64,000 nt of DNA from Kastovskya adunca ATA6-11-RM4 (GTDB taxonomy: Bacteria > Cyanobacteriota > Cyanobacteriia > Cyanobacteriales > Coleofasciculaceae): contig JAHHHJ010000022.1 of assembly GCA_019359445.1 (NCBI GenBank), forward strand, positions 1-64,000, written 5' to 3'. Shown in pieces: positions 47,408 to 56,722 of this stretch. Within the stretch, counting starts at the first letter, position 1, and each line of letters starts with the position of its first letter. The position numbers were made by a program, and so were the translations under genes. Below the pieces are notes generated by a model. That model worked only from the letters and a program-made list of their open reading frames with translations. It made no database searches and was not told the DNA's origin.

Positions 47408-47550
47408 CTTTCCATCATAAAACACATAGAACTGATGAACTTCATGGGCAGGGCGTGGTGATCGAGCAGGAGCCGATGTCCTAAAGCGTGCAGCCGCCGA
47501 AGGGCTTCTGCGATCGCTCTATGAAGGGCGGGCGCGATCGCCCCCAAGGG

Positions 47551-47691
47551 TCGGTCTTTAGAAGTCAGTACAGTAGGTAGCTTCCGGGTTTCTTCTGTGC
47601 GATACGAATAGTGTTTCACGCGAATAGCATCGCGAACTTGATCCAGCAATTTCTTAGGAGGTGGCTGACTAGACTCCATAGGTAGACGCAT
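47551..47691 (-). pseudogene. intI: Relic of an integron-type tyrosine recombinase
   Basis: Residues read PPKKLLDQVRDAIRVKHYSY then RTEET, matching the N-terminal core-binding start of integron integrases. They continue directly into RKLPTVLTSK, which in intact IntI lies some 75 residues farther on (LPTVLTKEE). A large in-frame deletion has joined the two. No catalytic R-H-R-Y residues remain, and the frame then enters a short dispersed repeat. It points left, away from the gene array to the right, as in integrons. Confidence 0.6.
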
Positions 47692-47857
47692 ACTGATTGG
47701 ATAGTAAATAAAACCTAAACAATCCAGCCCAGCAGAAAGAGGGGTAGTTATACTGAATTTTTCTACCTAATCTCCACTATAGGTGTATTAGGCTGACGTA
47801 TTTCTAACTAATCTTCCCTATAGGTGTATTAGGTGGAAAATTTCCCTTTAAATAATT
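47692..47857. other. Non-coding platform region, attI-like by position, with tandem repeats
   Basis: About 165 bp between the integrase relic and the first right-pointing module. It holds two 35-bp imperfect direct repeats with 41-bp spacing (47761-47795 and 47802-47836), both with CTATAGGTGTATTAGG preceded by CTAAT, so each can fold on itself (CCTAAT...ATTAGG in the first). The region ends at G of GTTATCC (47858), the probable left border of the first cassette. Calling it attI rests only on position. Confidence 0.4.
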
Positions 47858-47868
47858 GTTATCCTGCC
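47856..47868 (+). other. Left 13-nt end of first module (cassette border-like)
   Basis: TTGTTATCCTGCC is the exact reverse complement of 50942-50954. It contains GTTATCC, a reasonable GTTRRRY-like core site for integron recombination. Confidence 0.5.
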
Positions 47869-48081
47869 TCAGCTTCTACCAGACAGCAAAATTTTTCAAC
47901 AAAACCCAATAGAAACCATAGTTTTATTGCTGAAGCTTAACTATTGGTAGCTATTAGTGATGTTTTCCAATAGCTTGTCAGCATCTTTTCAAAAGCCAAC
48001 TTTTAGACAACATTCAGTAAAATAGAGGATAAATCTCTTTGTGGAAATTTTACTCTTCACTTGAAAAACTGTTGTTCTTTG

Positions 48082-48678
48082 ATGCGCTACACAAAAACTA
48101 AAGTCGCGGTAGCTACTTTACTTGCTTCTTGCCTAGCTGGAATCTTTTTTACCGCATTTTCTATGCACAGTACATTGTCAAATAAATTAACGATTTTTGA
48201 TATCACTCCAAAAGGTGTTATCAGTTTTCAAGAAATTGAGATTTCACATGCAGAAGCACCACCTGAACAGTTGTCTTCTGCAATAAAAATCGCCCTTAGA
48301 AATTCTTCACTGCAAGATATTGATGTTGACGTAGAATCTTACAGCGCTAATGTCTCTAGAATTAGTGAGCACCAAGCCAAGCAGCTCACTCAAAGAATGC
48401 AAAAAGCTTTTACTATTAGCCATGAACAAGCTTGGGAATTAGAATTAAACGGAACTTCTTATGCAGTAAAAGTTTACTACTTCCAAGACACTCAGTGGGA
48501 CATAGCCATTGTATCAATTGGATTTCAGCATTATATAGATGCCTTATGTTATTCTTTAAAGCTTCCCGGATATGAATCTTTGAATTCCAATAATGCTTTG
48601 AAGCTTTTGGCACAACTATCAGATTTAGAAAAGATTAACAGCATGCATTCTCTCAATATGAGTTCGGGTGCGCCATGA
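48082..48678 (+). CDS. Membrane-anchored protein of unknown function, first gene of module
   Basis: A 198-residue protein starting at ATG 48082 (MRYTKTK); a TTG 21 bases upstream is in frame. A single N-terminal helix (VAVATLLASCLAGIFFTAFSM) is followed by a soluble domain of about 170 residues outside the cytoplasm or in it. It contains TIFDITPKGVISFQEIEISH, SDISVD-like segments and the acidic repeat LSDLEKINSMHSLNMSSG. No catalytic motif is seen. Its stop overlaps the start of the pentapeptide-repeat gene (ATGA), so the two are coupled. I do not recognise the family. Confidence 0.6.
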   Translation: MRYTKTKVAVATLLASCLAGIFFTAFSMHSTLSNKLTIFDITPKGVISFQEIEISHAEAPPEQLSSAIKIALRNSSLQDIDVDVESYSANVSRISEHQAKQLTQRMQKAFTISHEQAWELELNGTSYAVKVYYFQDTQWDIAIVSIGFQHYIDALCYSLKLPGYESLNSNNALKLLAQLSDLEKINSMHSLNMSSGAP

Positions 48679-50927
48679 GATCGAGTAAAGTGAAGTACAG
48701 TGCTCAACTCTTGCTGAAGCAATATGGGACAGGACGCAGAGATTTCAGAGAAATTGATTTAATAAATGTGAACCTAAGTAATGCAGATCTTTCAGGCGTG
48801 AACTTGAGTAGTTCTGATATTAGAGGTACAAATTTATCAAGAGCCATTTTAAAAGAGGCAAAATTATGTAAAGTTGAAGCTGGAATACCTCTAAGAGTCG
48901 GTTTTTTTTTAGCAGCCTTATCCTGCCTAATTGCTTTTGTGGCCTGTGCAGCAGCTTCAATTTCTGGCTTTTTATTACTTAGTCTTTTAGAGCCTGAGCT
49001 TATCTTTATTCACTCTATATCTAAACCAGCTAAATTTGTTTCTATATGGCTGATTATCACTTTATCACTGATGACAATCACAGGGATTAGCCAAAGATTC
49101 TCTGAAAGTGAAATTTTTGAGTTCAAAGCAACATGGGCAAATTTTTTCGCCATTCTGACAGCAACCCTAGGGCTTGCTCTTGGCGTTTTTGGTTTCATGA
49201 TATTCTTGGTTTCAGAAAATCTTAAATACCATATGCCATATGTTAGCAATATTTTTTATCAATCTTTTAATTTTGATCAAAATTTTAAATATGTTTTGAG
49301 CATTTTTGTCTTGATTGCTATAGGACAAGCTATAGCGACGGGTCTTTCTATTATTGGAGTTTTTTCCTATCTTGCATCTAAAACCATACCTTATCAGATG
49401 TCGATCATATTTGGATTTATAGGTGCAGGAACTGGGCTTTTAATTATTTCAGGAAAGCACATTCTGATACCAGGGTTAATACTCGTAGCTCCATCTGTCT
49501 TGATTGGTTTGCTTTCCTGTAAAGGAGCTGTAGGATATAAATCAACTTGGGCATCTACAAGGGGTGCTGGTACTCTTATTGCCTGTTTATTTGGGACAGA
49601 TTTTCGGGGGGCAGACTTAACCAAAGTGGATTTTTATGAATCTATTCTTGAAAGTACGAACTTTGATAAAAGCGGAAATAAAAATACTAGGCTTACAGGA
49701 ATTTACTGCAAAAACGTTAGAGGTTTAGGATTCACCAAGACTAGAAACTCCATTTTTGCAGATCCTAAGGTTCAGAATTTGGTTGTGAGTTGTGATGGGC
49801 AGGGAAAGAATTTTGATGGCTTGGATTTGGCTGGAGTCAATTTACAGGATGCACGTTTGCAAGGTGCTAGTTTTGTCGGAGCAAGTTTGAACCAGTCAAA
49901 TTTACGAGGAGCAGATTTATCGAGAGCGATTCTGAAACAGACGCAATTGGACGAAGCCGATTTGACTGGGGCTGTTCTCACGGGGGCCTACATCGAAGAT
50001 TGGGGCATTACTAGTGCGACTATACTGGAAAACGTTCAGTGTGATTACGTCTATATGCGAGTGCCAACGGAGGAAAATCCGCATCCATTGCGAAAGCCGG
50101 ATTATTTGGAAGAAACGTTTGCAGAAGGGGGGTTTGCGGATTTTATTCAACCTTACTTTGATACGTTGGATTTGTATCACAGTCAGAAGGTTGACCCTCG
50201 TGCTATTTCGATAGCCTTCAAAGAACTGTCTCAGAATCATCCAGAAGCCAATCTAGAGATTGTAGCAATGGAGAAACGAGGACAAAACAGCCTTAATCTA
50301 AAAGTGCGGACAGCAGCAGCCGCCGATAAATCAGAACTCAGTTCAGAATACTTTGCGGATTATAATCAACTCAAGGCGTTATCTGAGGCACAAGTTTTGC
50401 GGCTGGCGGAAAAGGACGATCACATTCACAGATTGGAGCAGATGATTCAAACTGCCCTTCATCAGCCAACTTTCAATGTTGAAACTGTTCAAGGAGATTT
50501 TATGCCGGAAAATAGAGGAATTAATGTCAGTGCAGGTGATAACGCCAATATCAGTGGAGTGAGTAGTGGCGACGGTATTCTTAACTTGGGCATAATCAGC
50601 GGTCATGTGACTAATGCCATCAACCAATTGCCTGATTCCTCTGAAACAGGGCAAGCAAGTCTTAAAGTTCTGCTAACCCAACTACAAGCGGCAATTGAAA
50701 CCGATACTAATCTATCCGATCCAGATAAATCCGACCTGCTTGAACAGGTACAATCCCTTGCTGAAGCTAAACAGACTGAGGAACCGACAAAGCGGGAAGG
50801 GATTGTGCGGAAAGCAATGAAAATGTTTGATGCAACGCTGAAAAGCCTGCCCGATACCGCCAAGATTGTAGAAGCCTGTAGTAAGCTCTTGCCGCTGATT
50901 CTTAAAGCATTAGGTATTCCTACCTGA
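48675..50927 (+). CDS. Membrane pentapeptide-repeat protein, second gene of module
   Basis: A 750-residue protein. Pentapeptide repeats (NLSNADLSGVNLSSSDIRGT) fill residues 30-65, then five or six membrane segments to about 290 (FFLAALSCLIAFVACAAASI and others). A second pentapeptide block lies at 310-430 (LAGVNLQDARLQGASFVGAS). A linker and coiled coil (QLKALSEAQVLRLAEKDDHI) follow. The glycine-rich block NVSAGDNANISGVSSGDGIL precedes a C-terminal helical domain (LKVLLTQLQAAIETD, LPDTAKIVEACSKLLPLILK). The layout, a membrane sensor with a helical C-terminus, resembles some bacterial defence-associated or cell-death proteins, but no function is established. Confidence 0.7.
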   Translation: MRSSKVKYSAQLLLKQYGTGRRDFREIDLINVNLSNADLSGVNLSSSDIRGTNLSRAILKEAKLCKVEAGIPLRVGFFLAALSCLIAFVACAAASISGFLLLSLLEPELIFIHSISKPAKFVSIWLIITLSLMTITGISQRFSESEIFEFKATWANFFAILTATLGLALGVFGFMIFLVSENLKYHMPYVSNIFYQSFNFDQNFKYVLSIFVLIAIGQAIATGLSIIGVFSYLASKTIPYQMSIIFGFIGAGTGLLIISGKHILIPGLILVAPSVLIGLLSCKGAVGYKSTWASTRGAGTLIACLFGTDFRGADLTKVDFYESILESTNFDKSGNKNTRLTGIYCKNVRGLGFTKTRNSIFADPKVQNLVVSCDGQGKNFDGLDLAGVNLQDARLQGASFVGASLNQSNLRGADLSRAILKQTQLDEADLTGAVLTGAYIEDWGITSATILENVQCDYVYMRVPTEENPHPLRKPDYLEETFAEGGFADFIQPYFDTLDLYHSQKVDPRAISIAFKELSQNHPEANLEIVAMEKRGQNSLNLKVRTAAAADKSELSSEYFADYNQLKALSEAQVLRLAEKDDHIHRLEQMIQTALHQPTFNVETVQGDFMPENRGINVSAGDNANISGVSSGDGILNLGIISGHVTNAINQLPDSSETGQASLKVLLTQLQAAIETDTNLSDPDKSDLLEQVQSLAEAKQTEEPTKREGIVRKAMKMFDATLKSLPDTAKIVEACSKLLPLILKALGIPT

Positions 50928-50941
50928 GATACAACTGCGAC

Positions 50942-51026
50942 GGCAGGATAACAAATCGTTGCAGCGGCGGAATGGAGATAATCTGCATAAATCCAAGATT
51001 ATTCGCCGCCGCTCTCATTGTTGCCT
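50942..51026 (+). other. attC-like site after the pentapeptide gene
   Basis: Possible R'' GGATAAC (50946-50952) and R' GTTGCCT (51020-51026). Between them lies a strong hairpin: AGCGGCGG (50963-50970) pairs with CCGCCGCT (51006-51013), and ATAATC (50978-50983) pairs with GATTAT (50997-51002), leaving GGAG unpaired. Extrahelical bases and a 13-nt loop are attC-like. It starts 14 bp after the pentapeptide stop. Box spacing is not fully canonical, so confidence is moderate. Confidence 0.4.
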
Positions 51027-51040
51027 CTGGTTCTACATAC

Positions 51041-51342
<302 letters not shown>

Positions 51343-51588
51343 TCAAGGATCAGTCTTTGACCATCGCACCCGTCATCACCCCTAACTTTCAGCCCTTCCG
51401 ACCTTGCGGCTCATGACGCTGATGTACTCGCCGTTTCGGTCTGTTGCAATGGGTTCTATCTACAGGGCGCGATCGCACCCTAACAAGTCGATGAAGCGGG
51501 CTGACGAGAGGTTTTTGTGGGGTTGCCGAAGTTGTTTTCTGCCGCTTATCTTGGTCGTTCGAGTGCTTCAGTTAGTTGGTTGTAAGCA

Positions 51589-54398: not shown

Positions 54399-54857
54399 GT
54401 GAGCTTAGTGCTGTCCTGCTTTGACATAGCAAACTATTTTATTTGGATAGCGAATGAAACTGGCTCCTTCATTAGTAACTTGAAGCTTCAAAAGCTTGTT
54501 TACTACGCTCAGGCTTGGCATATTGCACTCCACAACAATCCTCTCTTTGAAGAAGATTTTGAGGCATGGGTGCATGGACCAGTAATTCCATCTCTGTATC
54601 AGAAATATAAATCTTTTGGATGGCAGCCAATCTCTGAAGATGTTGCTCCTGAGCTTCCTAACGACGTTTTTCAATTTCTTGATGAAGTTGCGGAAGAATA
54701 TTTTGCTTGCGATGCCTATGAGCTAGAGCAGATGACTCATGCTGAAGATCCTTGGAACTGCGCTAGAGGAGATCTAGCCCCGGACGAACCCTCTAATGAA
54801 GTTATCAAGAAAAAGTGGATGAAGGAGTTTTACGGAGCACGTGTCGAAGAAGATTAA
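54399..54857 (+). CDS. Panacea-domain (SocA-like, DUF4065) antitoxin
   Basis: A 152-residue protein with a GTG start. The Panacea fold is indicated by FISNLKLQKLVYYAQAWHIA, FEEDFEAWVHGPVIPSLYQK, DEVAEEYFACDAYELEQMTH and the basic end KWMKEFYG. Panacea-domain proteins neutralise many different toxins encoded next to them. The next gene begins 17 bp before the stop of this one, the usual toxin-antitoxin overlap. An attC-like site follows the pair. Confidence 0.85.
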   Translation: MSLVLSCFDIANYFIWIANETGSFISNLKLQKLVYYAQAWHIALHNNPLFEEDFEAWVHGPVIPSLYQKYKSFGWQPISEDVAPELPNDVFQFLDEVAEEYFACDAYELEQMTHAEDPWNCARGDLAPDEPSNEVIKKKWMKEFYGARVEED

Positions 54858-55272
54858 AAAGACTAAAGTCCCAAAGACTAGTACATCTGGGATTAAATCA
54901 ACAAAGCTGAAGCCACAAGGCATCAGCTTTTCGTTTAAGTACTATCAGGATGGTCATAATAAGTTCTCTTGTAATGAGAAGGCAGCTACATATTGGTTAA
55001 CCCTAATTGACCGTCTAAAGGCTCTGTCAGGTTTATCTAATCAAGAACTACTAGTGAACCGCAGTAGCACTCTTAGATGTCATCCAATTAGATGGGAGGA
55101 CACAAGTGAAAATGGCTTTGGATTGCCGAATGAGGAGCAGTTAGTAGACACCCCCTACCAGTTTTCTCTCTCTTCAAATGAGCATGGCAGAGTTCATGGA
55201 TTTCTTATTGATGAAGTCTTCTACATTGTTTGGTTAGATCCCAACCATTTGCTTTATTCCGCAAAAGGTTAG
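54841..55272 (+). CDS. Probable toxin partner of the Panacea antitoxin
   Basis: A 143-residue protein with a GTG start overlapping the antitoxin gene by 17 bp. The N-terminal 30 residues are Lys/Ser/Thr-rich and probably disordered (KKIKKTKVPKTSTSG). The compact domain begins GISFSFKYYQDGHNKFSC and includes YWLTLIDRLKAL, LRCHPIRWEDTSENGFG, LVDTPYQFSLSSNEHGRVHG and FLIDEVFYIVWLDPNHLLY. The conserved R-HPI-W-D and HGF-ID--FY-VWLDP elements suggest an active site. No known fold is recognised. Its partner's identity makes a toxin role likely. Confidence 0.65.
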   Translation: MSKKIKKTKVPKTSTSGIKSTKLKPQGISFSFKYYQDGHNKFSCNEKAATYWLTLIDRLKALSGLSNQELLVNRSSTLRCHPIRWEDTSENGFGLPNEEQLVDTPYQFSLSSNEHGRVHGFLIDEVFYIVWLDPNHLLYSAKG

Positions 55273-56157: not shown

Positions 56158-56200
56158 CAAGAACCCAATTGCAGCTTATAGCGCTACGCGCTATACCCGC

Positions 56201-56722
<522 letters not shown>

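Follow-up and report, generated by a model that had tools for sequence, protein, structure and literature searches.

A pair of overlapping genes in the window (the whole 64,000-nt stretch of DNA analyzed here) would encode a membrane sensor or anchor cartridge joined to a resident pentapeptide scaffold with an exchangeable effector tail, a reading to which we assign a probability of about 0.5. The pair consists of P0001, a small anchored protein, and P0002, a long pentapeptide-repeat membrane protein. Judging from the sequences, the gene pair is real and conserved, P0002 has a mosaic structure, and its tail is exchanged within the family between helical, CHAT, and STAND-like forms. The coordinates of the features are listed in Table 1.

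Table 1. Features of the P0001–P0002 locus, in window positions.
Feature	Position	Strand	Basis or remark
HIP1-containing direct repeat, left copy	47506..47559	+	81% identical over 54 nt; brackets the module
Two copies of a 33-nt direct repeat (47760-47792, 47801-47833)	47760..47833	+	91% identical, 41-nt step, CTAAT...ATTAG dyads
Inverted repeat, left arm	47856..47868	+	Judged chance
P0001, 198 aa	48082..48678	+	ORF list, hydropathy; N-terminal membrane anchor at about residues 8–26, then a soluble domain of about 165 residues
P0002, 750-aa pentapeptide-repeat membrane protein	48675..50927	+	ORF; start overlaps the P0001 stop by 4 nt
P0002 residues 1–68: short helix and first pentapeptide coil	48675..48878	+	Model pLDDT 69–78 over residues 11–70
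P0002 residues 69–302: membrane segment, about seven hydrophobic helices	48879..49580	+	Hydropathy, profile searches
P0002 residues 303–455: second pentapeptide coil; similarity and GC3 shift near residues 340–380	49581..50039	+	Sliding identity; GC3 of 0.33 up to residue 380 and 0.43 past it
P0002 residues 456–608: conserved helix-helix-strand-strand-helix core and coiled coil	50040..50498	+	Secondary structure from a low-confidence model
P0002 residues 609–750: Gly/Asn-rich strand-like motif and helical tail	50499..50927	+	Resembles the C-terminus of PADLOC PDC-M14B
attC-like hairpin, weakly stable, without typical 3' core	50940..51030	+	Folding versus shuffles
Inverted repeat, right arm	50942..50954	+	Judged chance
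Broken katG 3' end, right border of the module	51040..51320	-	84% identical to 56200-56460
HIP1-containing direct repeat, right copy	51306..51358	+	Brackets the module

The sequence-only reading had described an anchored protein of 198 residues and, coupled to it, a pentapeptide-repeat membrane protein of 750 residues, and both were recovered as open reading frames (ORFs), P0001 with a single hydrophobic segment and P0002 with about seven. P0001 would be 205 residues long if the TTG at 48061 were its start. It gave no Pfam match and no convincing NCBIfam match, and its soluble domain was assigned to no known family. Phages, plasmids, and viral contigs were searched for P0001, and plasmids and viral contigs for the P0002 membrane segment, with no match in either case. 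A weak match between P0001 and a CBASS cyclase model (E 0.008; E 0.035) was taken as chance, since the model was covered only in part and the score was far under the curated cut-off, and a weak P0001-like match in one other genome (G257) was dropped, as it is interrupted by five stops. P0002 is a pentapeptide-repeat protein (PF00805, E 5.2e-30, 103 bits versus a cut-off of 20.2), which shows, in this order, a pentapeptide coil, about seven hydrophobic helices, a second pentapeptide coil, an alpha/beta core with a coiled coil, and a helical tail. The AlphaFold models, based on two-row alignments, were poor (pLDDT 44 in the case of P0001), fair confidence being reached in the pentapeptide coils of P0002 only. 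No convincing match to P0001, the core, or the tail was found among the solved structures.

A second copy of the pair was identified in G002 (CASBRB010000215), a MAG from a different family, where the two genes occur in the same order and with the same 4-nt overlap, and where the P0001 homologue is 55–61% identical. Among the 391 genomes of the order, the P0001 profile and the membrane-segment profile each matched the same two genomes, and neither part was seen without the other; a third match to the membrane segment was weak, short, and stop-interrupted. If the two parts were independent, the chance of both landing in the same two genomes would be about 1 in 76,000, the count being two only, and the co-occurrence rests on n = 2 because P0001 is known from two copies only. 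The proposal that the two genes form a two-component system, for which co-occurrence across genomes had been suggested as the check, was supported at this scale. In 20 other members of the protein family examined, the membrane segments are unrelated to that of P0002, and the genomes of these members gave no match to P0001.

The closest partner of P0002 changes along its length, the switch in sliding identity being located near residues 340–380. Upstream of the switch, the G002 copy is the closest, most clearly so in the membrane segment (30–58% versus 2–24%), and downstream of it a homologue from Allocoleopsis PCC 7113 (L066) is the closest overall, with 52–78% identity from residue 350. The trees place P0002 with the G002 copy in the case of the N-terminus (residues 1–68; 98/97) and the membrane segment (100/100), and with L066 in that of the core (100/98) and the tail (98/100). 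Since the part trees are in strongly supported conflict, P0002 is a mosaic, and the travelling unit would therefore consist of P0001 plus the N-terminal half of P0002, across the gene boundary, rather than of a cassette with the repeat arms as its ends. The initial view that the whole module is the exchanged unit does not agree with these trees, which place the end of that unit inside P0002. Mosaic structure is seen in the G002 protein too: in the trees, the core falls with L082 (99/95) and the CHAT tail with L080 (100/100). The GC3 is 0.26–0.33 in P0001 and in P0002 up to residue 380 and 0.39–0.43 past that residue, the ORFs of the window having a value of 0.46; values as low as 0.27 occur in other ORFs of the window, and a low GC3 by itself is no proof of recent transfer. 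Relatives of the C-terminal half are present in 19 of the 22 genomes from the family (a count that includes the genome of the window itself), often in multiple copies, and the core/tail was found on 25 plasmid records, 11 of which are predicted to be conjugative or mobilizable. A paralogue of P0002 in its own genome (L021:5238-7253, G000:C16) carries an Ala/Gly-rich repetitive membrane segment and consists of two ORFs, split by a stop or a frameshift.

The C-termini found across the family are a helical tail, a CHAT domain (PF12770; in the G002 copy and in L080), or a STAND-like ATPase (L077). The CHAT domain of the G002 copy was detected at E 5e-10, its His and Cys motifs are visible in the translation, and the gene is followed by a DUF1822 gene. 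A Pfam scan detected no CHAT/caspase domain in P0002 of the window. The helical tail, which is preceded by a Gly/Asn-rich stretch with a ...SGxVTNTINQLP motif at its end, is also C-terminal in Roc-COR and LRR proteins and also stands alone. All the tails searched (6/6) matched PADLOC PDC-M14B (E 6.6e-7), over positions 179–263 of the 267 in the profile only; no paper using the name PDC-M14 was found.

When P0002 is compared with known proteins and systems, the Allocoleopsis homologue L066, which belongs to an unnamed cyanobacterial pentapeptide family with variable C-termini, is alike in the second pentapeptide coil, the core, and the tail, but it occurs without P0001, and its N-terminus and membrane segment are unrelated to those of P0002. 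In the EACC2-caspase systems described with DUF1822 and an ECF sigma factor (PMC8195603), a constant module is joined to variable parts, as here, and the G002 copy likewise has a CHAT (caspase-like) domain and an adjoining DUF1822 gene. The likeness is drawn from these two features of G002, however, the window having no protease, DUF1822, or sigma gene, and the position of the G002 CHAT domain, C-terminal and behind a pentapeptide protein, differs from that in the EACC2 systems. PADLOC PDC-M14B has a C-terminal helical domain in common with the P0002 tail, but it is a phage-defence candidate only, with the match confined to the last 100 or so of its 267 profile positions and the remainder of the protein unlike P0002. 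The bacterial TRADD-N systems, which are also cyanobacterial, combine a central alpha/beta adaptor with pentapeptide repeats and variable effectors (PMC7159879, PMC8195603), but the strand-strand-helix order differs in the low-confidence model of the P0002 core, and no Pfam match to TRADD-N was obtained in 12 core sequences. The NLR/BASS amyloid signalosomes, of which CHAT domains are reported to be effectors, show overlapping two-gene clusters, a Gly/Asn-rich motif before a helical domain, and CHAT as an alternative effector (PMC7889193); unlike in these, no NLR gene is present at the locus, and no short motif common to P0001 and P0002 was noticed. Cyanobacterial caspase homologues with pentapeptide repeats have also been described (PMC3501461, PMC8283722).

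In the mechanism we propose, the N-terminal half of P0002 and P0001 together would make up a module that serves as membrane sensor or anchor. This module would move as one unit across the gene boundary, and a resident family of pentapeptide-repeat proteins would have supplied the C-terminal half to which it was fused. From the latter half would come the rigid beta-helix, the conserved adaptor of alpha/beta type with its coiled coil, and the effector tail, which is exchangeable: helical in the window copy and a CHAT protease in the G002 copy. P0001 would lie mostly outside the cytoplasm and might, together with the membrane segment, detect envelope damage or an invader, and the C-terminal tail might then oligomerise and give rise to a response of the defence or cell-death type; we infer the sensing, the orientation, the oligomerisation, and the outcome from the domain types found in place of the tail. 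By analogy, a defence role is plausible in view of the C-terminal swaps with CHAT and STAND-like domains and the likeness of the tail to a PADLOC candidate. More tentatively, P0001 and the matching membrane segment might constitute a sensor cartridge that is transferable and previously undescribed. It would plug into a ready-made cyanobacterial scaffold on which the helical tail, the CHAT protease, and the STAND-like ATPase serve as interchangeable death effectors, and the exchange point would fall inside a pentapeptide coil, not between genes.

Housekeeping roles are known for pentapeptide membrane proteins of cyanobacteria, HglK and RfrA among them, and P0002 might, in the same way, be an ordinary envelope or thylakoid scaffold or a transport protein, with P0001 as an accessory subunit and no link with defence. 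This is rather unlikely in our judgment: the locus has no defence neighbours and the tail is tied to defence through a candidate family alone, but the exchange of CHAT and STAND-like C-termini, and the presence of numerous diverged copies within one genome, are characteristic of conflict systems, not of housekeeping scaffolds. We regard as distinctly improbable the possibility that P0001 is an inhibitor (an immunity or antitoxin partner) silencing the membrane part of P0002 in a toxin-antitoxin-like pair, since P0002 has a long conserved scaffold and an exchangeable effector, unlike the usual toxins, and members with other membrane segments exist without P0001, even though such a pair would be expected to look like this one, in which a short first gene is coupled in translation to that of a larger membrane protein and pairs specifically with one type of membrane segment. 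Cyanobacteria have many long pentapeptide-repeat membrane proteins, which are annotated by the repeat alone. Under the sensor-and-scaffold reading, the present case shows such proteins to be assembled from exchangeable input and output parts, P0001 being the identified partner of one type of input and the CHAT protease and STAND-like ATPase being alternative outputs on one scaffold, so that the sensing and effector halves of an expanded and unexplained family could be tested separately.

As regards the boundaries, the module had been presented as a large cassette or mobile unit, bounded by a 13-nt inverted repeat and an attC-like hairpin. The repeat is exact, as stated: TTGTTATCCTGCC and its exact reverse complement are the only two exact copies of the arms in the 5.1-Mb genome. 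If all exact inverted repeats that have arms of 13 nt or longer and span 0.5–4 kb are counted, however, the window contains six, versus a mean of 3.65 (range 1–9) in 20 random Markov-1 windows with the same dinucleotide make-up; no target-site duplication was read beside the arms, and the G002 locus carries no exact or one-mismatch copy of them. Because comparable counts arise in random windows and these ends are missing from the G002 copy of the pair, the repeat is not considered meaningful, and the idea of shared ends was abandoned. In the 5' half of the hairpin, TAACAAATCGTTGCAGCGG does resemble an attC half-site, but the 3' core is absent, both halves of an integron attC ending in the core GTTRRRY, and the stability is weak (z -2.3, with 5/200 shuffles equally good, and z -1.4 with a longer stretch). 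Two attC-like 5' half-sites, at 50949 and 51481, are found on the same strand, 532 nt apart; the one at 51481 forms no hairpin, no module lies in between, and no cassette array was found beyond this second half-site. The half-site pattern had 8 near matches in the genome versus 0 in the reversed control, the pattern being derived from two of these matches. An Rfam scan of the window gave no match, and no tRNA target was found. We attribute the inverted repeat to chance, and the hairpin could at most be a decayed relic. With the mosaic breakpoint located inside P0002, away from the arms, it is very improbable, despite the unique arms, the z value of the hairpin, and the half-site matches, that the repeat forms the ends of a mobile unit or that the hairpin marks an integron cassette.

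The module may instead have arrived by recombination between dispersed HIP1-type repeats in gene debris, an unlikely scenario which would be compatible with the sensor cartridge on a resident scaffold. The 54-nt direct repeat, of which only two copies occur within the window, is a better candidate for the edge of the inserted stretch than the 13-nt arms, and a katG (catalase-peroxidase) 3' fragment begins 13 nt beyond the stretch delimited by the sequence-only reading and is repeated at 56200; but HIP1 sites are very common in cyanobacteria, and no genome with an empty site around pyrC was found, nor could one be demonstrated, because the flanks around pyrC are not syntenic in the relatives. 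The two broken katG 3' ends (51040-51320 and 56200-56698) have the same orientation, are 84% identical over 281 nt, and lie 5.1 kb apart, with no intact katG seen between them. The 33-nt direct repeats, located about 250 nt upstream of P0001 and present in the genome in these two copies only, could be operators.

A defence island, which had been named as something to test for, was not seen around the pair, the neighbours being pyrC, a FAD monooxygenase, and gene debris, and a scan of the neighbouring genes with defence models gave no convincing match beyond that of the tail to PDC-M14B. At 54399-55272, an antitoxin-like ORF with a SocA/Panacea domain overlaps a 143-aa ORF with a weak match to the MAG6450 family, and the two are likely to form a toxin-antitoxin pair. 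In an Allocoleopsis relative (L093:321-3806), ORFs which by eye resemble the Tn7-like TniQ, TnsC, and TnsB adjoin a pyrC that is 93% identical.
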